From Pseudophaeomoniella oleicola (Eukaryota; Ascomycota; Eurotiomycetes; Phaeomoniellales; Phaeomoniellaceae), in assembly GCA_003868215.1 (NCBI GenBank), contig QWDQ01000004.1, positions 62,001-126,000 of the forward strand: a stretch of DNA of 64,000 nucleotides, written 5' to 3'. Position 1 is the stretch's first letter; each line of letters begins with the position of its first letter. The notes beneath the pieces were generated by a model that was given only the letters and a program-made list of their open reading frames with translations, was not told the origin of the DNA and ran no database searches. A program made the translations under genes and the position numbers. Shown here piece by piece: positions 2,906 to 62,206 of the stretch.

Positions 2906-4417
2906 CTTGAATTGTCGGTTATCGAAGTGATTTGTTGTGTTGTAATCGTTGGTTGATGTTGGTGATGGCGATTAGAAGATGTTGTGGCGGGTGAAGGAGA
3001 GGGGACGCGCGACACTGCGATGGGTTGGGTGACTTAAGTTGTTATGGGGCGGAACGGAATGCAAGGAAAACGCTTTTCAAAGATTCGAAAGCAGATCAGT
3101 CGGCCCAGACACGCCTTTCCTCTTAGGGACTAGGCTCATCAACCTCAACTTCGACTTCGCGCACCCAGCAGGCAGTGCGAGAGCTGCAGCCTGATCCTGC
3201 TCGCAACCAAGCTTGTCAGTGCAAAATAGACATGTATCCTGATGGTGAGGCACTGTGTGATCCATCTGTCACAGCTTGTTCGGATGACGCCCTCGGCGTA
3301 GACACGTAGCCCCCGTTGACCACTGGGGTTTGTTCAGCCCGATACCTGCTGCCAGTTGCAACCCTTGATCTCACCTTGCGACTTGAACTATGTAACGAGA
3401 CAGTAGCATCCCTATGGAAGGGATGCTCTTCATAACCAGACCTTGCGGTTTTCATTTCTGTCGCTCCCCGCGGTTGATCATATTCGCAGGTGAAGTGTGA
3501 TGTCAAGTGTGCGATGGGGAGAAGGCGGACAAGATGACAAGGTCGGAAAACCGCTGCTTAGTCATCCACATACCTGTCGGATCCCTCTCATTGGTAGCCT
3601 GCCTCTAAGTACCTCAGCCTGTGTCGATGAATAAGACCGGCGTAAGGTGCGCTGTCTGAAGTCGTTGATAAGTGTAGGCTGCATATCATGCATATGTGCT
3701 TGCTGTCGTCTTGACATGCTGCAGATTATCGCCGTGTATTTCACATGTCCTCGCGACTTCACGGTTCCGGAGTAATACATGCTTCCTACGACTTTAGTCT
3801 CTCGTTGTATAGTAATGGCCCATGTCCAGGACGTTAAAGATGGTGCAGTAATCAGTCAAATTTGTATATTGTAGTAGCACGTGTGACATTACGCGGTATC
3901 GATCAGAGACAGACTCAAGACAACAAAGTACACATAGCCGAGCGCAGATGAAACAGCGAACGATATGAAATAGCCGGAGAACCTATTTTCCCTCTCTTTT
4001 GCGATCCATGGACCCAAGAACCAAGCGAGAATTATTCCACGAAGAAGTCATTCATGCCAGCCACTGGGTAAGCTGCTGCTAACCGAGTTCCCTTAAAGGA
4101 AATGCAACAAAAAAACCACCTATTATCGAACAAATATGCTGTCGAAATGCAAAAAATGTGCGCCATAATTCCATTACTTCGTCCTTTTGTACAGATATCT
4201 CATCGAACCTGAAGAAGGCCCCGCCAGACACTATGAGACAAAACATCTTGTTTCCAATAGCGCAGTAACCGGGCTGCCCCGCACATAAGATCTAATGTGG
4301 TATCTCATTCATTTTTTTCTTTACTCGTTGAATCGTCGTTCGTCATTTCATATGGCTTCCGGCTCAAAAGACTCATTTCTGTTGGGCCTCAGCCACGGTG
4401 CATATGGGAATCGTCGC
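2906..4417. other. Intergenic: H2A.Z promoter and 3' flank of the RRM/R3H gene
   Basis: About 1.5 kb without a supportable gene. The proximal part (about 2906-3060) should hold the H2A.Z leader and promoter. A 141-aa frame overlapping the H2A.Z first exon is a shadow. No repeats longer than a few units were seen. Confidence 0.55.
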
Positions 4418-18022: not shown

Positions 18023-20719
18023 ATGTCGTCTCTACCTTCATTCCTGTTCAGTAGTTACAAGCAGTACAAAGCCGACACAAACATACTGGTCGATTGGCTC
18101 GTTCGGACAGCCAAACAATGTGGTTATCAGGACGATGACGACAAAGATGGTTCATTGTTCAAAAAGCAGAAGCTCAAAGGCCGGGCCAGAAAGCTGGCCC
18201 GTGACGCAGCTACTGCCAACAAACCGTTACGAGATGGGGACGCCCAGACTACACCAAAGACAACACATGTGGTGAAGGCAAAGGATTATGTGCCAATGGC
18301 AAAATGTATTGTCAGCTTTGAGAAACCACCGGTCGAGATCTCCGCTCCGTTGTGGAAAATTGCTCAAAGGGCAATCAAAGCAAGGAAGGCCTGTGCAGCG
18401 TGGTTCCAGTCGGACGGATGCGATGACGGTGATCATGGGACCAAGAACGAGGCACATCTGCACTTCGTCACGGTTCTTGAGGAGACCCTAGGTATCCTCG
18501 AGAAGCGTCTCAGCAAACCTAAACGGTCAGCCTCCGATCCAGCCACCGATAACTCGAAGACGACTTCTGCGGATTCACCGCTTGAGAGAATGCAGAACAT
18601 GTTTGATGTTTTAAGTATCGATGAGCCAGCAGCCAACGAGATTGAGACTGTCGAGGTCGGAGGGCGTACGGAAGGGATCGAGCAACCTTCTACACCGACA
18701 CAGGAGCGAGCGACAATAGATGATGCTTACGTTGCCGAAGAGCCCCAAACGGAGGAGCAAAAGGAACTGGAATTTCTTTTTGCCTCTTTCTGTCTCTTTG
18801 CAGACTTGAACAAACTTCGGCACAGAGTGAAAGCATGCTGGGCGGACTACAATGCAGGAAAGGCTAACCTTGTTACGGCTGCAGTCATTACAAATACCGC
18901 CATGGAGTTGGCAAGACGTCTAGAAGAGGACTTCAGGAAGTATCTAGCTGAATCTCAGACCGAGCATCTCCGACTCATGGACCAGGGTAGCTTATGCCGC
19001 TATCTATACACTTACGGCTTGGACTTGGTCGGTGTAGACTGGCTTATGATGCCACGTGGTCAGAGATTTGACTGGGAGACTTACGAACTTGCCGAGTACC
19101 TGTTCGTTCCCTGGTATGAGCAGATAGTAGGCTTCTGTACCGTATATCCAAAAGATTCCCTTCCAACAGGCAGAGTTGACGTGTCAAAGTACGATCCCAA
19201 CCTCGATCACAGCAAACTTTCGGCTCGACAAAGGTATGAACAAAACCGAGACCTCCTCCAAGACTCACTCATACTCATGGCAATTTATGCTGCTATGGGA
19301 TCCTCTACTCCAGAAGATGAACTGATCAAGGGCATCCGTGATGCACGCCGGACGAGGAAAGTCCCCCTTTGGCTCGGCTTCGGTGCCCAGGTATATCTCG
19401 ACATTCACGACCTTATGAGACGAAATCCTCAACGGGCCTTCGAAGATATGCGCTTTTGTGGCCAGACGGTATTCAACAGCATCGATAGAATCCAGAGACT
19501 CGAGAAGCAGCATTCCAAAGATACTAAACGCACCATGGCAATGACCCGGATCGACCGGGTTGCAGACTGCCTTGACGACTGGGTACTTACAGACTTCATT
19601 GGCGAACATCTTCGTTGTGGGTTGTTGGCGGAGGGGAGTATTGACACGGAACCATATCAACTCCTCTCCACCAGCCCTCTGCTTTCGGGGACATACAAAT
19701 TTAGTGTCAACATGATGGCCACGACGGACGGCATACGATTTGCCAACGAAAGGACAATGATCATGTTAGCCGCGCATCTGTACAACGCCGTAAGACAGTG
19801 CACATCCGTTCTCAGCGACACCCGCTGGGAGGATATGGACCTGCTGTTGTCATGGCACATGAACGAACTATTCGTCGGCACCGAGCTCCCAACCACGATC
19901 GAAAGCTGCGCGAAGAACACAACGCTCATGCTCGGCGTGTCTGCTGACTCCTACGCTCGCAATCGTCGCCACCACAGTGCGGGCCTCAAATCTAAACAAC
20001 GGTTCCTGACTGGAAAATCAGAGCTGATGGAAATCTTTGTCGACCGCTATACCAGCAACGGCTCAACCCAAGTTTCCGTCTCACAAGCTGAAGCCCTTCT
20101 GAGTAAACGAACCTCTTCGCAGACGAAAACCGCGACCACCATCACTCCCACCCTCTCCGTTCATCAATTCCTCTCCATCCTTCAAACAGCCCTCAACGAT
20201 CCCCCCGAACCCCGCCAATACACATTCTCTTACCTCTCCCACCACACCCGTTGTACCCACCTCCTCACCCAAATCCTCCATGCCGTCAACCCCCTCCTCG
20301 ACCGCCTCGACTTCCTAACCCCATCATCATCATCATCATCATCATCTCAAAAACACCGCTTAGACCACACGCCCTCCTTTTCCGACGCCCACGCCTCCTC
20401 CATCTTCGCCATGCACGGCTCCTGCCTCCTCCTCGCCACCGACCCATCCTCCCACATCCGAAAAGTGATCAACGCCGACCTCAACGCTCACACAAGCACT
20501 TTCCGTCCCGATGGTACTGCAAGCCCAGCAAGCTTGGGTATCGTTGTCGATACCTTCGCGGGTCAGCAGTCGTGGGAACCCCTCGAGATGGCCGGACGGG
20601 TGATGAAGGAATTCATCGAGAGGGAAGGAAGGGCTGGGATCAGAGAGGTTGAGAGCGTACTTGGTGGTGGTGGTGGTGGTGGTGGTGGTTGTACTGGTAC
20701 TGGTCCTGATAGGTACTGA
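18023..20719 (+). CDS. Conserved fungal protein with DUF6604-type N-terminus
   Basis: Single-exon gene of 898 aa and unknown function. The N-terminus LFSSYKQYKADTNILVDWL, followed by a charged KKQKLKGRARKLA patch, is the hallmark opening of the fungal DUF6604 domain (name from memory). That domain would span roughly residues 8-280. A mostly helical body follows, with no catalytic motif I can recognise. The C-terminal part has Ser runs encoded by TCA repeats (near residues 770-775) and a glycine run near the very end (about residues 881-890) encoded by GGT repeats. Both are likely unstable in length. Third positions become markedly C-rich in the last 600 nt compared with the start. Neighbours give no functional hint. 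Confidence 0.75.
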   Translation: MSSLPSFLFSSYKQYKADTNILVDWLVRTAKQCGYQDDDDKDGSLFKKQKLKGRARKLARDAATANKPLRDGDAQTTPKTTHVVKAKDYVPMAKCIVSFEKPPVEISAPLWKIAQRAIKARKACAAWFQSDGCDDGDHGTKNEAHLHFVTVLEETLGILEKRLSKPKRSASDPATDNSKTTSADSPLERMQNMFDVLSIDEPAANEIETVEVGGRTEGIEQPSTPTQERATIDDAYVAEEPQTEEQKELEFLFASFCLFADLNKLRHRVKACWADYNAGKANLVTAAVITNTAMELARRLEEDFRKYLAESQTEHLRLMDQGSLCRYLYTYGLDLVGVDWLMMPRGQRFDWETYELAEYLFVPWYEQIVGFCTVYPKDSLPTGRVDVSKYDPNLDHSKLSARQRYEQNRDLLQDSLILMAIYAAMGSSTPEDELIKGIRDARRTRKVPLWLGFGAQVYLDIHDLMRRNPQRAFEDMRFCGQTVFNSIDRIQRLEKQHSKDTKRTMAMTRIDRVADCLDDWVLTDFIGEHLRCGLLAEGSIDTEPYQLLSTSPLLSGTYKFSVNMMATTDGIRFANERTMIMLAAHLYNAVRQCTSVLSDTRWEDMDLLLSWHMNELFVGTELPTTIESCAKNTTLMLGVSADSYARNRRHHSAGLKSKQRFLTGKSELMEIFVDRYTSNGSTQVSVSQAEALLSKRTSSQTKTATTITPTLSVHQFLSILQTALNDPPEPRQYTFSYLSHHTRCTHLLTQILHAVNPLLDRLDFLTPSSSSSSSSQKHRLDHTPSFSDAHASSIFAMHGSCLLLATDPSSHIRKVINADLNAHTSTFRPDGTASPASLGIVVDTFAGQQSWEPLEMAGRVMKEFIEREGRAGIREVESVLGGGGGGGGGCTGTGPDRY

Positions 20720-37667: not shown

Positions 37668-40600
37668 ATGCATTTCCTCAAGTGGACTTCAGCCGTGGGC
37701 TTGCTAGCCAGCCTTGTTGCCGGTCAGGAAGACGTCTCTACAGCTTCCGGATCCTCGCCCTCGAGCTCAATAACTTCTACCAGCTCATCCACAGCGACAA
37801 CGAGCATTCAGACGACGAGCTCTCCGTCATCTACTTCATCCACGTCAATTATCGCCGGCACTTCGTTGACAACTACGATTTCTACATCATCTACATCAGT
37901 CGTCGCCAGCAGTTCGTCCACAACTACGAGCTCGTCGGTGTCCCCTACCGTCCCTAGCACTGGTAGGCTTCTCTCCTGTTTGTGGTAACCCTCTTGCTAA
38001 TTTCGGAGAAGCTACGTCAGTCGTCGTTGCTGCAGATGGCTCCGCTGCATTTACGGGAATCGGCGCAGCTATACTCTACGCTCAGCAGAAAGCTATTCCC
38101 ACTGTCTATGTGCAGGCAGGCACATATAATGAAGCAATCTTGGTCAGTGGCACAAGCGCGGTGACCATAATTGGAGCCTCCTCATCGTCCAATGACTATA
38201 ACCGAAATCAAGTTATTGTTACTACATCCGGGATCCCAATGACCATCAATACCAACGACGTTACGAAGACAGTATGGAGAAACATAAACTTTGTGAGTAC
38301 TAGCACGGCGGCGGCAGCTTGGGCTGTGTCCCTACGGGGAACGAAAAATGCCTTCTACAACTGCCAGATGATTACTGCTGGTAATCAAGCAGTGTACTCG
38401 ACCTATGGCATCACCCTTATCGCCAACTCATACATCGAAGCTGCTTCTCAGACTGTTGCCGGATTCTTGGGCATGTATATTTACGGCTCCACCGTCACGG
38501 CAACCGCTGCATCGAATGGCATTGTGCTCTATAACAAGGGTATCGCCACCACCAACTCACAGGTGGTCTTTGACAGTTGCACACTTACTCAGAAGACTGG
38601 TTATACCAATAAGAGAGTATATCTAGCGGCACCGAATGGAAACTACGCACAAGCTGTTTTCCGCAACACGTACATGTCTGACATGATCATCAGCGCAGGT
38701 GTATACCCCTATGCTGCGACCACTGTCAACAACTACTATGGAGAGTATAATACGTCTGGCGCTGGTAGTTATGCTTCCAACAGCGCTACCAGAGGTATCC
38801 AGGACAACTTAATGACAAGTTCTCAACTCTCCAGTTGGTCCATTGACCGGGTCTTTGCAAATTCATTCCCGCCATACGCGACGAGCGATCTCTCATGGAT
38901 TGATCCTTCGGTCCTGGCAGCTATCCAAGCTGCAGATGCGAACAGTATCACCACTAGCGTTTCCACGGGCAGTTCTTCCAGTTCCCAGACCCCACCCTCA
39001 AGTTCTGTAACGATTGCTAGTGTGGGTTCTTCTTCCAGCGCCGTTGTCCAGACTTCCACGACAAGCTCTGTGGCAAGTACTAGCACGGACTCTTCTTCCA
39101 GCTCTATTGTGCCGACTTCCACATCAAGCTCTTCGACAACCGCCAGTATGGGATCCACGTCCGGCACGAGCGCATCGTCCAGCGCTCCAAGCGGTTCCTC
39201 AAGTACCTCTGTGTTGGTGACTCCCACTTCTAGCACTGTTAGTGCTTCTGCCACTAGCAATTGCACGTCATATACTCTTCCATCATCGATACCATCGACT
39301 GCCAGCGTCAAAGTGGTCGGACCTATAGGTTCCTGCGCCAGTTATACCAGTGTTGCTGCTGCCATCTCTGACTTGCCCAATGATTCAAGTACGTGGTACG
39401 TGTACATCTTGGCGGGTACCTACGATGGCAATGTGACGCTTTCTCGCAGAGGCGCCACGGTTTTCAGAGGCCAGTCGAGCTCATCGCTCGATCAGTCCAG
39501 CAATCTCGTGACCATTACCAATGCTCGCGCATTAGTGACTGGCTCTGGTTCGTCTGAAGGAACGTCAACATTCCTTACGACCCAATACAATGCAAAACAT
39601 CTTGCCTTCTACAATATCAACTTTGTCAATTCTTATCCCCAAACGAACAACTATATTGCCATAGCGTTTGATGCGAAGGCCCAGCAGGTGGGTTTCTACT
39701 CTTGTGGCTTCAAGTCAACGGACGGCACGTTCCTCGCAAACTATGGCTCGTTTTACCTTGCTGGCTGTCGCATCGAGGGTTCTCAGGACTTCTTTTGGGG
39801 ATACGGTGCCGCTTACGTCTATAACTCTCTCATTGTCTCGAACGCTGCCGGCTACAGCATTGCCGCTCAGAGCTATCAGGAGCAGTACGGAAGTTCGCAG
39901 TTTGTCTTCGATACTTGCGCCATCGTCCCCAGCTCTTCGAGCATAGGTTCTTCTTCAACCTTTTTAGGCCGTGATTATTCCGCATCCGCTCGTGTTGCCT
40001 ATGTCAATTCATTCATTGATGGCCACATCAAGCCGGTTGGCTGGTCAGTAGGTTCCACAGGAACCAATGTCACCTTTGTGGAAGCCAACAACATTGGACC
40101 AGGCGCTTCGACCTCTTCTAGGTCTTCGAAGGTCTCCATCTTGTCAGATGGCAGCCAGTATTCAGCCGCAAATGTCCTTGGCGATATAAGCTGGGTTGAT
40201 GCAGCCGCCATCCCGGCTTTCTCAGGCTTCCCGTCTCCCATCTTTCCAGGTACAGCGGCTTTGACGACTTCCGTAACCTCGTCTACGAGTTCCATAATCT
40301 CATCTGTCAGTTCCCTAACCTCATCAACTGCACTGGGGAGCACAAATGCTACGGCAACTGCAACGACATCTTCTTCTGTCTCCTCGACGTCATCAGCAGC
40401 TTGCCCGACCGATACTCTTGTGGTTAATCAAACTCCTGAGAACAGCTGTCAATATAGCACCATCTCTGCTGCTGCTGCAGCCCTTGCCAATGACGGGTTA
40501 GAGAAGACGATCCTGGTCTATCCCGGCAGATACAACGAACAAATATCCGTCAACCGAACTGGAAAAGTGACACTTCGAGGCACTACATCATATGTCAATG

Positions 40601-43600
40601 ATTTTACACAGAACCAGGTCATAGTTTACAACGCTTATGGTGTGTCCACAAGTGCTAACCAGGACGAGTTAACACCAGTGTTGTACAGTAAGAAGAGCAA
40701 CTTGGCAGTTTACAACATCGACTTCCATAACACCTTTGAACAGGCCGCTAGTCATGCAGCTCTAGCCGCTGACTTCTATGGTTCAAACATGGCATTCTAT
40801 GGGTGTAGCTTCATCGGCTACCAAGATACCTTGTTGCTCAACCAGGGTGTCCAGGTCCTCAGCAATTGCTACATCGAAGGATCGGTCGACTTTATATGGG
40901 GTTTCTCTACCGCCTACATGCACGGTTGCTACATTGCCGCGAACACTCCTGGTGCTTCCATCGTTGCAATGAGCAGGAGATCTGCATCAACAGCTGGCGG
41001 TTATGTTATCGATTCATCCCTAATCACATATACCTCCACATACGGATCGTCTATGGGCCAGACGTACCTTGGACGCCCTTATTCCAGCTATTCCAGAGTT
41101 GTCTATATGAACTCTTACCTGGACAGCAACATCAATCCAGCTGGTTGGTCAATTTGGCAGACCTCGAATCCCCAAACGGACAATGTACTCTTTGGCGAAT
41201 ATAACAATACTGGTCCATCTTCGTCCACCGCTAATCGAGCATCATTTTCCACCCAACTGGATGCCACTGCTGTTCAAGCATATACGCTACAGAACTGGAT
41301 CGGTGACACTTCGTGGCTTGACATGGCTACTTATAATCTTCCACCCTCATATTCATGGTCCGATACATCCGCCACCAAACCTACTAGCCCGGCCTCTAAC
41401 ACCACTGCTATCTCGTCAACTTCGTCTGCAACAGCATCTGCTACAGCAACTGCTACAGCAAGTGCGACTTGCGGACATCCATCTTCTGGAACAGACGTCC
41501 CTGTCGGTGCCGTGGTTGTAGATGCTTCCAACAGCACTAGTGGCTCATATCCCAGCCTGACATCTGCGCTTGCGGCATTGCCCAAGGATTCGAGTTGTCA
41601 GGTCATTTTCATGATGCCAGGGACCTATAACGAACAGGCAGCTGTCAATCGTCCAGGTCAGACCCAGATCATTGGCTATGCGAACGGGAGCCCTGGTCAA
41701 GGTTATTCAAACAACCAAGTGACCATCTCATATAGCAGAGGCTTGTCAGTGTCCTCTCTGCCAACTGGCCACTCCGATTCGGAGACAGCGGTAATCACTA
41801 CGACATCATCGAATATTGCCTTTTATAACGTCAATTTCGTCAATACCGCCAATTCCGACGGTTCGACACCTAGCTTCGTAACCCTCGCGGGGTCCGTCTA
41901 TGGGTCACATATAGGCTTCTATGGCTGTTCACTCATCGGATGGCAAGACACTCTATTGACAGGATCGACCAACGGCTATCAGTACTACGAATCGTGCTAT
42001 ATCGAAGGGGCGATTGACTTCATCTGGGGTTATTCTGCGGCCTACTTCAAAGGTTGTACAATCGCCGCAAAGAGGAAATCCTCGGCCATTACCGCCCACA
42101 GCCGTGCGAGTAGCTCCGCAGTCGGCGCATACGTTTTCGACGAGTGTTTGGTCACGGCGCCTCCTGCTTATTCCTCCGCAATACAAGCCAGCGTGTTCCT
42201 TGGCCGCCCCTATTCCAGCTATGCTAAGGTTGTTTACAAGAATTCCTACCTCGACTCGATCATTGCACCATCTGGATGGAAGACATGGAGCACAAGCGAT
42301 CCTCGTACAGATCACATCACCTTCGCAGAGTACAATAATATCGGGCCCGGCAACTGGGAAAACAATGCCGCTGCACGTGTCGCTTGGGGAAACTGCACAC
42401 TTTTGACCTCTGATACGTATACGCTTTCCAGCATCATGGACTCCACAAGCTGGATCGACATGACTTATTGGGATAGCATCTCAATACCCACCGGTGTATC
42501 ATCAACCGTGCCTCCTCCACCCACGACCACGCCACAGACGCCGCCCACGGTCGTGGCCAATGCCACATCTCCACGCGCGACATCTCCGGGTGATACCGAC
42601 TACATTGTTTCCAAGACACCCATCACGGGCAAGACAACGTACAATACAATCTCAGACGCTATGTCAGCCATCAACAGTGTGTCTAGAAGCACAACCGTCA
42701 CCATCTTCATCTACCCTGGAGTATATCAGGAGCAGCTGACATTCAACCGATCAGGCACGACCATCTTCCGCGGATACACAGAATCTCCCGACGATAATGC
42801 CCAAAATCAAGTCATTGTTCAGAATAGTCACGGCGTTGACACACAGACAGATCAGAGCAACTCGGATTCTGCAACTTTGTATTCCAGAGCAAAATATATC
42901 CAACTATACAACATCAATCTGAACAACTTGTTTGGCACGGAAGATGACTATGCCTCTCTAGGGTTCGCTATTGGCAACAACGGCTACGCCTCTTTCTACG
43001 GATGCCAGATAACAGGAAATCAAGATACCTTCGACTTGAATAGTGGGACCAACGTCTTTACCTACAATACCTTGATCGAGGGCTCTATCGACTTCATTTG
43101 GGGATCAGGTTCTGCCTACTTCCTGAACTCAACCATCGTGCCGAATGCCGATGGTGGATGTATCACAGCTGACAAGAGAAGTACCAATGGCTCTATCGGT
43201 GGTTTAGTCTTTGATCAATGCACAATTGCCGCTGCAGCTGGAGTCTCCCCGGGTTCGATCTATCTAGGTCGCCCCTACAGCCAGTATGCACGGGTCGCAT
43301 GGATCAACAGTTACCTGGATAGCTCAGTTGCTCCCGCTGGTTGGTCTGTCTGGTCAAGGTCAAGTCCTCAAACAAATGGTGTCTTGTTTGGTGAATACCA
43401 CAACTATGGACCCGGTTCCTCGACCGCATCTCGTGCGTCATTTTCCGAACAGCTCACGGATGCCGATGTCGCGCAATTCCAACTGGCCAACTTCTTCTCT
43501 ACCCAAGGGACCTCTTGGATTAATATGACATATGTTCATACCGCCCCGTTCACCGCTGGCTCCTCTCCGGTCGCAACTTATACTTCCTCATCATCTGTTG

Positions 43601-45102
43601 CTACGGTCACACCGACTTCGACATCTGAAATTACAACTGTTCTTCCAGAATCAACTATCACGATCACCAGATCAACGACCGCTAAGGTGACGGCTTATAC
43701 GACTCTGTCCGCTGATCCTGTGACGAGATTTACGACTGTCAGTGTTGCGCTCGGCAGCAGTAGCACTGTTACCCCAGCTCCTGTTATCATTACCAGATAT
43801 AGGACTACCACGTCGACTGAAGGGTCTACATCGACACTGACCCCTGATGAAGTCACTGTTACGCGATATACGACCATCCTCACGAGTGTTGGGTCTACCG
43901 TCACGGTTACGCCAGATTTGAGTACAGTCCTTAGATATAGTACTATCAGGACAACCGTTGGCTCGAGCCAGACGATTGTTCCGGATCCTGTCACTACAAC
44001 GAGGTATGCCACGAGCACAACGACATCATTTTATACAAGCACAGCTGCCGCATCAACGGTCACCCAGACTCAAGTAGCTACTGTGTATGGCACGTCTACG
44101 TACTCATCCTCTCCTCGGTTGGTTACCGTTACCACGAGCAGCTATTTGACGTCTACTCGCGTTCAGACTGCAAGACCAACCACTATCACGAGAACAGTAT
44201 CTACACTTACAATTCCTGGGCCAGTCACGATAAGTACCCCAAGGAGTACAACAGTCTACGTGACGTCCACTTCGACAGGAACGAGGACGAGCAGCGTGAC
44301 CGCGACCCTCAGCTGCACTCCGCTTGCGAAAAGAGATTCGATTCCGGTAGATCGTTTCCACGTTCGTGCTTTGGTTTCACACGAGAGAAGAGCAGTTGTC
44401 CCGAACCCGTCGACGGCTACCTATACATATACATCAACCCTTACATCGACCGTCAAGACCGTTAGTTCCGTCATACCGGGTCAAACTGTAACGGCAACGA
44501 CGACAGCGACCAGCCTGGTCACGGGTGTGACAACTCTGAGGGCAGTGACCACTACAACAACATCTACTATTGCGCTAATAAGCTCGATAACTGATGTGAG
44601 CGTTCCAAGAGCTTCGTCGACCACCTCAACCTCGACAGTCTTGCAAACGAGCACAATATCTGGACTTACAACCCTCAGGGGCAGCACGACCACCTCGACT
44701 GCAGTTGTGACCCAGACCAGCTCGATCGGTGGTGTTACTACCCTCAGGGCTTCCACGACTACTGTAACCTCCCCTGTTGTTGTCACAAGGACTTCAAGCG
44801 TCAGAACCACGGCCCCTGTCGCAACCGTTGTGGTATCCGCAACAAGAACCTCAAACTCAGTCGTCACCCTTCCTCAATCCACCAGCACCGTCACCGTGAT
44901 CCGAACTGGCAGTACGACCGTCACTTCCTACGCTCCCACCTCGACCGTCGAGATCGACAGAACGATCACGTCGACCGGAGCAAGGACCACGGTCACCGCT
45001 CCTCAGGTCACGATCACGAGGACCACAACGCACAAGACGACCACGACAGCGTACAGCACAGTAACAAGATATGCAAGGGGTGCAACTACCTGCGCTGCTT
45101 GA
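37668..45102 (+). CDS. Giant secreted protein with five tandem pectin-methylesterase domains and a mucin-like tail
   Basis: Two exons, 37668-37962 and 38009-45102 (intron 46 nt, GTAGGC..GGAG); 2462 aa. A signal peptide (about 1-19) and a Ser/Thr linker precede five right-handed beta-helix domains of the CE8 pectin methylesterase family. They lie at about residues 100-405, 525-840, 897-1215, 1253-1592 and 1627-1949, separated by Ser/Thr linkers. Domains 3, 4 and 5 keep the whole active site: Q1037/D1038/D1059/R1121, Q1411/D1412/D1435/R1498 and Q1770/D1771/D1793/R1853. These fall in the motifs QDT, DFIWG and LGRPYS. Domain 2 keeps the nucleophile (SQDFFWG) and Arg (LGRDY) but has Gly for the acid/base Asp. 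Domain 1 has lost all of them. The tail (about 1950-2462) is almost only Ser/Thr/Val, probably heavily O-glycosylated. No GPI or transmembrane end is seen. Likely role: demethylating plant pectin outside or at the cell wall. Typical fungal members are single-domain, about 330 aa. Confidence 0.92.
43711..44030 (+). repeat. Coding repeat array 1 in the esterase tail (23-aa units)
   Basis: About four and a half imperfect 23-residue units, residues about 2000-2105. Each carries a TRYTT-like core and ends in S-x-GS-x-x-TVTP. Confidence 0.75.
44521..44820 (+). repeat. Coding repeat array 2 in the esterase tail (about 25-aa units)
   Basis: About four imperfect units, residues about 2270-2370, with the recurrent core GVTTLRASTTT and TSSI spacers. 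It is distinct from array 1, from which it is separated by a dibasic site (K2206-R2207). Confidence 0.7.
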
Positions 45103-57601: not shown

Positions 57602-60600
57602 ATGGACTCATTGGCCGTCCACAAGGAGAACATCATCCATTCGTACCATCCAAAGATTACAGATGTGTCCGACACACCCACCGAATGGCATCAGGACCAC
57701 TCCACCCCTCGGCCAGACCAGGATAGGGCCCTCCCTGACCGATCTCACTTGAGGGCGCGAAGAGTGACCCTGGAGGATCTAGCCGCCCATGTTCGAATGC
57801 AGAGAACCCAGACAATCCGCTTTGCACAATTGAGACGCCAAAGGGAGAGTATTACTCAAGAGATCGCACTTGCTGCAAGACTCGTGAGGACGCAAAGATG
57901 GACTAGACGCGCTCTTATGAGGCATCTAATCTCCCGTGATAAGGCCGGTTTTGCGGATTGTTTTCAGGCTATACAGGGTCTCAAGGACAGCTTCTCGAAT
58001 ACCTGGGTGACACGAGAATTCTCCCGCGATGGCACAACCGATAGCCTGGGTCTTTCGTCGCCACATTGCTCGTTGTCGTTGGCAAAATTGACTGCCAGGT
58101 CAAGAGCAGAACTGCAGGAGTTGCTGAGGCTGGTCAGGATGGACACAAATTTCATAGTTGACCGTATTCGATGTTTACCAGCCCGGAAACTGGAGCAACT
58201 TGCCTCATCTCCCGAGATCCAGGATAGAAATGACGTTCGACCAGGTTCCGCCTCCCAGGCTAGGCTTCCTTTGTCCGCTGCCCGGCGCAATGCGGCTTTT
58301 ACTGGCGCGGTGAAGGATAGGATTGGATCTCTGGAGCGGCATGACTCATTGTCGGTCTTGTTACATAACGTCTGGAACGCCAATAATCCATTGGATGCTA
58401 GCGAAGCGGAACGCAGACTACACACCTGGTCCTCGGTGTGTGCGAGGTTGTTCTCGGAGTCTGACGATGAGTTCGGGCCCTTGATATGCCGCATCCTAAA
58501 TGAATATGCTGACCTTGCGGAATGGCGGGCACGGCCTCGACTAGAGGTGTTCCTACGGTCTGTTCTTCAAGAAGGAGCATTTCTGCTTGGCTATTCCAAC
58601 CATGAATTATCATCTTCTGAATATGCTACTGGATTTGATGTATCGCTTCACACGAAACAGGCAACGGAATTTTTTGACAGAGCGCTCAAGGATCTCTTCT
58701 CGATCTTAGATGATGCTGAAGGGGGTCTTCCTCGTGGAAGTCTGGAACTTGGATCAGCGATCCTTGGCAAACTTCCCAATGAACAGACACAGGGCGCTTT
58801 TCGCGGATTTTTGCTCTATACATGGTTCTTCGGTCAGTATCTGAAGTCCTTTGTCCTAGAACCAGAGGTAGGTTCCCAATCGTCAACACAGGTTTTTGTA
58901 CTGACCTCTCCAGTCCCACGGCTCCCTGCTGGATCAGCACATTCGCCCGGAAGCTCGTGATCGGGTCTTACAGGAAGTCTCAAGGCGAGCACAAGCAGTT
59001 GTATATATGGTGTTCGATAATGAGTAAGTATTCCTATGCAACTCCTATCATCTGAATCTCACAATTTGGCCAGGCCTTCTTCCCACGCTGTAGCCGACCT
59101 CGTCCGGCCCCACGTAAACAGAATGAACAATAAACTTATTTTGATCAATCCACCACTACCACAAGGTCTTGAGACGGCTGATGAAGACAATCGAGCTGAG
59201 AACGACGATAGCGCACCTCTTTTACCGTTAATACTGGCACCTGCAGATCTCGTCACTTTAATAGACACTCTCTATCCACGGTCAATTGTCACGCCTGTCG
59301 GTATGGTTGATCCATTCACTGCGACCAACCCGGTGGTATCCCAGAGCAATGTAACGGCGCAAACATATTCGAATTATGGGACCGCTTATGGAACAATGTA
59401 CTTGCATGATAACATCCCAATCCACGCAAAAACCCGTGCAATGAATGCGGTACCATTCGCGGATATGTCAACCCCCTTAGAATTTGCTTACTCAAGGGAT
59501 CAGTCGTCGTCCTCAAATACACGGCGATTCGAAAGTCTCCGGCGAGACCTCGAAAGTCTGGCCGATGCTGGTGCAGCCGCACAAAGGCCTTTCTCTGATG
59601 GCTGGATTTCATTAGACGTCCATCACAACGGTCGCATATCTTGGACCCCACAGGCAGATACTGAACAAAATGAGAAAGGCTGGGGTGTTTCAACCACATT
59701 ATACAGAAGTAACCATTCTCGCCGAAATATCACAGCTGAAGCTGCCATTCGTCTAGCGGAAGGCTTCAACACTGTCCACGGATCTACAGCATCAAGCGTC
59801 GGGTTTGATCGGTTCGCTCAACCATCGGCTTGGCTGGAACGACTGTTTGAAGATGAGGTCGAATTTTATCTGGCGAAATCTGATTCAGCTGCCGCTCATT
59901 TTTGGTGGACGGCATTGAGACATATACGCGAGCATTATCCCGTGTGCTGCCTCTCGGGAAACGACACAAAGATCCTAGAACCACTTATCAGAGAGTCGAC
60001 TGAGATCTATCAAAGGGCCAACAACGCAAGTATCAATATGGAGACACAACTTGCTCACTTTCAAATTGTTTTCAATCAATTAAGAGTGAGTCTAAACACA
60101 CTTTCTAGGCAGCTAGAGAATTTTCGGGATAAAATGTGGTACATGACCGGAGTCCGTGACTCTCAGCCTTTTGACCAGGCCCGGAAAGTTGCAACAGCGT
60201 TGCACAACATGTGCCTCCCGGAAAGCCCGAAATCATCAATCGAAGCTAGCATACGACAGCAAGTGCACCAGCGGCCTTCTTCCAGTTCATTGCTGAACCA
60301 AGCTGAATTGCAAACTGGTGACATCCTAAAAGCTCCTCCAGAGCAAGGGGGTCCCAAGAAGCTTGCAGACGAACAGATTGAGTGGATTAAGAGATGGATG
60401 GAGGGTTGTAGCATTGACAATTTCTGTGTTGGAGAGGAGAGATTTCATCGGTTTTGCCTGGAGATTAGAGAGACGGTCAACAAACTCGTCGTAGACAACA
60501 TGATTGACGGGCGCTTTCTTTGGTCCAGTGAACTCTTTGCCCGTGAGCGGTCAAGACATGATATCCTCTCGACGCGTTCGACATCTGCGCATAATCCAAC

Positions 60601-62206
60601 GAGGCCACCAAGCGTCGTCAGTGATGAAGGACCTTCCATTTCAAATTACGCGCTCCGGGGACAGGATGTCGTTTCGCGCCCAGCCTCGTTTGAGCCAGGA
60701 GTATCCCCAGGACGCAAAGGATCGATTCATAGTTTTGAGCGGTGGAGGTCGGGTCGTGAAGCATCTATCCTGGATACCGCATCCGCAAGCGATTCCCCTG
60801 GCCGGACTATTTCTACAGTCCCATCGGAGTCGCTTGCGACTTTCTGGTCTCCTGCCGTAACTCAAGCTCAGTCAACGGCGAGCATATATAGTACACATTC
60901 TCGACCTGCGTCTGTACACACTGACATACAAGGGGTCAAGGGCACAGATCCTGGTCACGTCGCGAAGACGGGGTTCCTTCAAAGGCTTAGGAGTAACCTT
61001 GCCAGTCTCCTGCTCAGTGACCTGTGTTGTCCAGTATGGAGCACTGGCTGTGAGACTGATGCATGGATCACAAACGCCCTGTGCCAGCAAAGAATTAGGC
61101 ATCGGATAAGGAAGAGAGCCAGCATCGAAGCTCTTCTTGCTGACCCGGGATTCGTGAGAGCACCAAAATCAGGGCATGGACCTCCTCGACTGAAGTCAAA
61201 GCGTAGTATGTCCGTTGGGCCGAGTGCTCATTCAGGACCGCTCCCGTTCGTACTGTCATCGCTTGAGCCAGAAGACGAAAAGCGGCAAGACTTCGTCGTA
61301 GAATCAACCCCCAGCTCGGCTCGAGGGTCATTTTCTTTCGTGTCAGCATTTGAGAATATCATAACATGTCTGTCTGCCGAAGCCGATCCACGCTTGAAGC
61401 TTCAGAACCTGAAGGACCTGCTGGCATTGGTGGCGGCAGCTTTGGAGATGTCTCCTCCAGATGCAGCTCCTGCATACCGCCGGAGTCAGTCCCAATCACG
61501 ATCAAAATCCAGGCGTTGGTCACAGCCAAATCCCCGTGTTCAGCCAAAAGTCTCGCATTCCCAATCGGATAATTTCGAAAGTCAGACCACGGAATCATTC
61601 GACGAGGCCGGGATCTCTGGTGAAACTCGCTTAAGCAATACTGACCGCAACATAATCGACCTGATGAAGAAGATATTCATGGATCTCCGTCCTAGGACTC
61701 TCTTTCGGGATCTACAGCTCGTCTCAGCCTTTGTGGACCCGGCAATACTAGCAGAATCGGACAACCATAGAGCCTTGCTACTGGCGGGTCTTGCTGCGCT
61801 GGCGTTCAAAGAAGATGTGTGTCGGACGTTGGTTGGGATTGCCGACAAGGTCATCATGCAAGACTCCATCAAACGACGATTAGCTCCAGGCGCTCCGAGC
61901 GAGTTCTCTCTCATAGACGCCATCAATTTCTGGATTATCTGCGCCAAAGAGGGCAATGCTATTGCGCAACGCGAGATCGCTACGCTCTACCTTACACATT
62001 CTTCGCTTCTTCCGAAGGCTACATCTCCGATGAGCCTCTCGAAGGATACCTTCAACTCCACAATTGGGATCTCACTTCGAGACGTTCCTGCAACGTCTGT
62101 TGATCCCTCAGCGATGCAATTAGCAGTGCACTGGATGCAGTTGGCTGCCCAGAATGGCGATAAGTTGGCCCAGTCACGATTACGATATGAGAAACAGCAA
62201 CATTGA
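57602..62206 (+). CDS. Large conserved ascomycete protein with Sel1-like C-terminal end
   Basis: Three exons, 57602-58867, 58914-59023 and 59074-62206, with introns of 46 and 50 nt; 1502 aa. The joins LEPE|SHGSLLDQHIRPEARDR and FDNE|PSSHAVADLV are clean. The N-terminal half is helical with Arg-rich heptads (about residues 55-110). It has a region at about 270-480 whose helix pattern faintly recalls RasGAP-like folds (GFLLYTWFFGQYLKSFVLEPE, then RPEARDRVLQEVSRRAQ). That is only a suggestion. The middle has long Ser-rich disordered parts, including an RS-type run (SQSQSRSKSRRWS). The C-terminus has two Sel1-like helical repeats (EGNAIAQREIATLYL and AVHWMQLAAQNGDKLAQSRL). I recognise it as a conserved fungal type but do not know a function. 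Confidence 0.8.

Follow-up and report, generated by a model that had tools for sequence, protein, structure and literature searches.

How might five pectin methylesterase (PME) domains, joined in one polypeptide chain, divide their work? The question is raised by a gene of the ascomycete Pseudophaeomoniella oleicola, which lies on the forward strand of a 64,000-nucleotide stretch of contig QWDQ01000004.1 (referred to, at its full length, as the window) in an assembly of 26.1 Mb and 112 contigs. Judging from sequence comparison, we consider it probable that the product of this gene, itself probably secreted, is an old ascomycete tethered array of three active esterases and two non-catalytic, probably pectin-binding pseudoenzyme domains. 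The five-domain PME looks like a conserved, apparently little-described family that is not unique to the genome of the window.

Five CE8 domains in one reading frame

The gene begins with an ATG at 37668. Exon 1 (37668–37962, plus strand) encodes a putative signal peptide (37668–37727; N-terminus MHFLKWTSAVGLLASLVAGQ, recognised by eye) followed by a Ser/Thr-rich N-terminal segment, and is joined by a predicted 46-nt intron (37963–38008; GTAGGC...CTAAT...CGGAG) to exon 2 (38009–45102), which stays open up to a TGA stop at 45100–45102. The predicted spliced product has 2462 amino acids (aa). The intron is an inferred in-frame GT-AG choice, one of twelve that keep the frame open; their products range from 2431 to 2463 aa, and the differences among them are confined to the junction of the N-terminal linker and the first domain.

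A first-pass annotation, made from the DNA letters alone, had proposed this 2462-residue frame with its 46-nt intron, five CE8 (PME) domains joined by Ser/Thr linkers and a Ser/Thr-rich C-terminal tail, and each of these elements was recovered. The PF01095 profile search that it suggested as a check matched five stretches, more than one or two, in the exon-2 translation that starts at 38110 (E 5.6e-140). Taken individually, the domains D2 to D5 score 85–153 bits each against a cut-off of 27. D1 alone gave no match to PF01095; it was identified as CE8 by profile–profile comparison (probability 99.7, E 2e-26), and the best Protein Data Bank (PDB) matches to its predicted fold are the PME of Aspergillus niger, with template modelling (TM) scores of 0.74–0.75. 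The parallel β-helix fold of PMEs was found, and the CE8 assignment of the domains is supported by sequence and, for D1, D4, and D5, by the predicted fold as well.

All five domains lie on the plus strand. D1 occupies 38011–38928 (aa 100–405; profile match 97–405) and is followed by a Ser/Thr-rich linker of about 120 aa (38929–39294, plus strand) and by D2 at 39295–40224 (aa 528–837). D3 extends over 40405–41346 (aa 898–1211), D4 over 41500–42483 (aa 1263–1590), and D5 over 42592–43548 (aa 1627–1945). The tail takes up the remainder of the frame (43549–45099, plus strand; 517 aa, 47% Ser + Thr).

Inactive and apparently active domains

The catalytic set, which we take to be Gln135, Asp136, Asp157, and Arg225 in carrot PME numbering, was scored in an alignment of domains from multi-domain proteins with more than 250 profile positions covered; the counts, and those given below for the pocket and the architectures, include close relatives (many of them Fusarium) and partial metagenome proteins. 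The complete set is found in 193 of 202 D3 domains, 223 of 230 D4 domains, and 198 of 205 D5 domains, and in none of the 168 D1 or 114 D2 domains. The window protein follows this pattern, with Gln1037/Asp1038/Asp1059/Arg1121 in D3, Gln1411/Asp1412/Asp1435/Arg1498 in D4, and Gln1770/Asp1771/Asp1793/Arg1853 in D5, in agreement with the first-pass count of three complete sites; D1 and D2 are broken. Among 102 five-domain proteins, 92 are dead-dead-active-active-active, nine are not fully scorable, and one has a broken D4.

The two inactive domains differ in what they have kept. Lys takes the place of Asp157 in 162 of 168 D1 domains, and the catalytic Arg is present in none; D2 carries Gly at the nucleophile position in all 114 domains, with Asp157 kept in 112 and the Arg in 113. 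In the window, the four positions read GNQA in D1, where 0 of 4 catalytic residues are retained, and DGDR in D2, where Gly671 replaces the nucleophile Asp, Asp670 replaces the Gln, Asp692 and Arg753 are retained, and GRD stands for GRP. The same positions read GSKS and AGDR in Cytospora mali, and GSKL and GGDR in Cytospora schulzeri and two further relatives; all are inactive, though the residues differ from those of the window. The register of D1 is uncertain near the lost nucleophile, where two alignments lie one column apart, and Asp is found there in neither.

Of 22 pocket columns, 14 are at least 95% conserved in D2 against 5.3 expected (P 4.3e-5), which exceeds the rest of the domain; the live domains D3, D4, and D5 have 15, 20, and 16 such columns against 7.7, 9.8, and 7.3 expected. 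These statistics count related species, not independent events, and the pocket columns were chosen from CE8 motifs. The unusual GRD of D2 is present in 102 of 102 domains. Since the pocket is conserved above the rest of the domain though the nucleophile is gone, D2 seems to be a pseudoenzyme that was retained, not a copy in decay, and is likely a binding module; that its ligand is pectin we put at an even chance. We read D1 as more loosely constrained than D2: 18 columns reach 95% conservation in D1, 72 in D2, and 147 in D4, which is conserved better across the family than any of the other four. This fixed split into inactive and active CE8 copies, more than the number five, seems to be the apparently new aspect of the protein, in which some enzyme folds of a single chain would have been converted to probable binding modules.

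Distribution and descent of the architecture

Of 8000 candidates scored against residues 1–1860 of the exon-2 protein, 302 proteins reached E ≤ 0.001. The relatives analysed comprised the best 120 of these 302, 86 of 86, and the best 120 of 330, in all 319 database proteins, or 320 with that of the window. Within the best 120 of 302 plus the window protein (n = 121), PF01095 matches five times in 107 proteins, four times in 11, and six times in three. Position-specific profiles assigned the order D1-D2-D3-D4-D5 to 102 of the 320 proteins, window included; the order was thus found, as the first-pass annotation had proposed to look for it, in other ascomycetes. The other architectures are D1-D3-D4-D5 (45 proteins), D3-D4-D5 (32), D4-D5 (15), D1-D1-D3-D4-D5 (14), single domains (61), and smaller classes; a considerable share of the short forms consists of fragments. 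The domain order is broken in none of the 259 proteins with two or more domains.

That the five domains reflect an assembly artefact, or a gene fusion in one genome, has next to no probability: the identical architecture recurs in 101 further proteins of the database, many of which come from named species, and such an exact match is not a product of chance. As defined here, the five-domain PME family is characterised by the domain order, the dead-dead-active-active-active pattern, and a Thr-rich tail, all of which are present in the window protein. Its closest named matches, among those listed, are the proteins of C. mali (2539 aa, named “pectinesterase”) and C. schulzeri (2489 aa), both Diaporthales, which likewise have five CE8 domains in the same order and a Thr/Ser-rich tail; with these and the two further relatives, the window protein shares 67–82% identity per domain. 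Other named hosts include Fusarium, Colletotrichum, Verticillium, Diplodia, Aspergillus, Penicillium, Aureobasidium, and Hypoxylon. A three-domain form in Agyrium rufum (Lecanoromycetes) and a four-domain form in Saitoella coloradoensis (Taphrinomycotina) hint at an origin before Pezizomycotina, although transfer might account for them too. In Berkeleyomyces rouxiae, two single-domain, D3-like genes (P0124 and P0127) have the near-consecutive tags BROUX77_006498 and _006500 and are possibly a split-up member of the family.

The architecture had been put forward as a candidate for something undescribed. It proves to be widespread in ascomycete entries, and many of the database relatives are already named “pectinesterase”; no description of tandem CE8 fusions in fungi was found in the titles and abstract openings of the matches listed from 5.39 million open-licence papers, an absence that carries little weight since most subscription journals fall outside that search.

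Domain phylogeny argues for an old fusion. In an IQ-TREE tree of 88 domains, D1, D2, D3, D4, and D5 each form a clade with ultrafast bootstrap (UFBoot) support of 100, and the domains are closer to same-position domains of other species than to their neighbours in the chain; because they group by position across species, the fusion is old and not a recent tandem duplication. The single-domain proteins P0123 and P0124 nest inside D3 and P0137 inside D5, and next to D1 stands the P0315 N-terminal domain, which bears the label D2. A FastTree tree built on 38 of the 107 proteins with five hits, and on 58 segments from the 86 short hits, recovers D4 (0.962) and D5 (1.0) as clades; D1–D3 are not clear, the D1 clade, which includes two D2-labelled domains, having a support of 0.0 and D3 one of 0.371. 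The two trees disagree on whether the five domains have a single origin. FastTree groups D1 with D2 (0.978) and unites all five domains (0.908), whereas IQ-TREE places both D1 and the P0315 N-terminal domain outside the group of canonical fungal PMEs and leaves the remaining relations weak (UFBoot 48–87). Our guess is that the placement of D1 reflects a long branch, and we make no claim on the order of duplication.

Mode of action, tail, and surroundings

Once their pectin is de-esterified, plant walls become open to other enzymes. In the tethered array that we favour, D3–D5, which quite probably catalyse pectin demethylation, would act as a flexible set and bring about dense local de-esterification; D2, and perhaps D1, would serve as binding modules that keep the array on pectin, and the tail, probably O-glycosylated, would hold the enzyme in an extended form or fix it to the fungal wall or mucilage. 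The outcome would be pectin made cleavable by polygalacturonases and pectate lyases. We give rather limited credence to a bolder form of this proposal, an ancient ascomycete class in which the inactive copies would be recognition modules, D2 for methylated pectin and the Lys-bearing D1 for demethylated (acidic) pectin, with D3–D5 using a non-canonical oxyanion hole. To our knowledge, an array that reads substrate and product on one chain has not been described for CE8.

The linkers bear on two other proposals. Several sites on one chain, and the fact that D4 and D5 are always neighbours where both are found, would suit a processive machine whose domains form one tract for a sliding pectin chain, and processive action had been suggested in the first-pass annotation. 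We regard it as quite improbable: linker lengths vary among relatives (D1-D2, for example, from –2 to 208), the structure model of D4-D5 (predicted TM score 0.54, with a low-confidence linker at a predicted local distance difference test score of about 30) gives no sign of a rigid tract, and PMC3913658 states that fungal PMEs are not processive. Somewhat less improbable, yet still doubtful, is a polyprotein cut in its linkers after secretion into separate single-domain PMEs. The linkers are Ser/Thr-rich and long, especially at D1-D2, and some relatives are single-domain; however, the conserved order and the conserved inactive domains argue for joint function, and, with only KR/RR sites considered, none of the seven in the window protein lies in an inter-domain linker (they fall within domains or, at 2206 and 2225, within the tail). 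Kex2-like processing into single domains was rejected on this ground.

Several observations weigh against the tethered array. Its relatives range from five domains to two. Some species can hence do without D1 and D2, even if the short forms are in part fragments. The Gln beside the nucleophile is lost in D2 of the window protein and of its four closest relatives, and the idea of a binding pocket is weaker for the window protein as a result. The D1 pocket is not enriched (four of 22 conserved columns against 2.7 expected); the sole feature that speaks for binding by D1 is its Lys (162 of 168 domains), and the window D1 has Gln there. Lastly, the canonical first oxyanion-hole Gln of the QAVAL segment, presumably Gln113 in carrot numbering, is found at its column in 0 of 114 sampled D3–D5 domains (three from each of 38 proteins; one is a gap), so that the activity of D3–D5 could be weak or altered.

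This Gln is present in 35 of 36 PMEs (fungal, plant, and bacterial) that the FastTree tree does not group in the family clade, is retained in two other PME genes of the same genome (L002 and L006/L007), and is absent from all five window domains. In a second alignment, shifted by one column, His, Phe, and Tyr stand in its place in window D3, D4, and D5. There it is also absent from two single-domain proteins, of Jimgerdemannia and Umbelopsis, which may mean that it was lost before the fusion took place. In D3, most members have a Gln (Gln1010) four residues upstream that might substitute for it there. A Gln at any position between –2 and +4 relative to the motif’s first column occurs in 194 of 202 D3, 48 of 230 D4, and 76 of 205 D5 domains; a general substitute of this kind is thus lacking in D4 and D5. 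We take Gln153 of PDB entry 2NTP to be the same oxyanion Gln. PmeC5 of the bacterium Butyrivibrio fibrisolvens (PDB 9MM2), likewise a large secreted protein with CE8, has Arg206 against that residue according to PMC12109409. Together with the one outside exception, PmeC5 suggests that the first oxyanion Gln is not absolute in CE8, and the five-domain family offers a natural test of its role.

The missing Gln and the Thr/Ser-rich tail would both fit an inert wall or adhesin scaffold in which D3–D5 have no activity either and the CE8 folds act as lectins for pectin. We think this improbable, since Gln/Asp/Asp/Arg is kept in 614 of 637 D3–D5 domains and lost in D1 and D2, which points to selection for catalysis in D3–D5 only.

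Known PMEs differ from the window protein in build. The A. niger enzyme (PDB 5C1C/5C1E) has one domain against five and contains the QAVAL Gln missing from D3–D5; plant PMEs share the CE8 catalytic domain and, unlike the window protein, have a single copy with a PF04043 inhibitor-like pro-region. The large Butyrivibrio PMEs are bacterial and are described as combining a PME with a PL9 lyase and wall-binding domains, and passages of PMC12109409 mention no tandem CE8 copies. The way in which fungal PMEs are counted and tested would change with a conserved multi-site PME that retains two inactive domains, because the five-domain protein figures as one ordinary pectinesterase under the database names encountered.

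The tail is conserved as a family feature and is probably an O-glycosylated stalk or wall-attachment region; that it anchors the protein is a tentative suggestion. In 137 of the 166 proteins whose final D4-D5 pair is followed by over 250 residues, K-x-A-x-x-C lies within six residues of the end. The window tail, with cysteines at 2201 and 2460, ends in RGATTCAA, with R where the family motif has K, and its C-terminus (...TVTRYARGATTCAA) has no obvious hydrophobic end of the glycosylphosphatidylinositol type by eye. A comparison with the rest of its own genome gave no match besides its own place, and a tail shared with other proteins of that genome was rejected on this ground. In mid-tail (44314–44388, plus strand; residues 2201–2225), Cys, Pro, Arg, and Ala positions are conserved, and the KR (2206) and RR (2225) of the window protein form a possible processing site between two Thr-rich halves.

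A pectin gene cluster around the gene was rejected: of 16 neighbouring frames scanned in the window, 11 have Pfam matches, none of them a pectin enzyme, and five have none. The matches are to a TPP enzyme, R3H/RRM, an aldo-keto reductase, HSF, DUF6604, Gcd10, an RFC subunit, a histidine phosphatase, a 2-hydroxyacid dehydrogenase, a cyclophilin, and Cac1. The DUF6604 frame (18023–20719, plus strand; 898 aa, E 1.7e-64) belongs to a family of unknown function. An open frame of 1056 aa (59036–62206, plus strand) has no Pfam match at E 0.001, and neither does the adjoining 452-aa frame (57602–58960).

Elsewhere in the genome, L002 (G000:C31:327373-331134) is likely a PME–polygalacturonase fusion, judging from its translated frames: bases 1222–2994 hold a 590-aa frame with a canonical-site CE8 domain and then the first half of a GH28 polygalacturonase (profile 8–143), and bases 3018–3641 hold the second half (143–320) in the next frame, after a short gap that is likely an intron. 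L008 (G000:C77) carries, on the minus strand of bases 1435–2884, a PME-like gene split over several frames; one of its three pieces reaches Pfam, and introns are probable.
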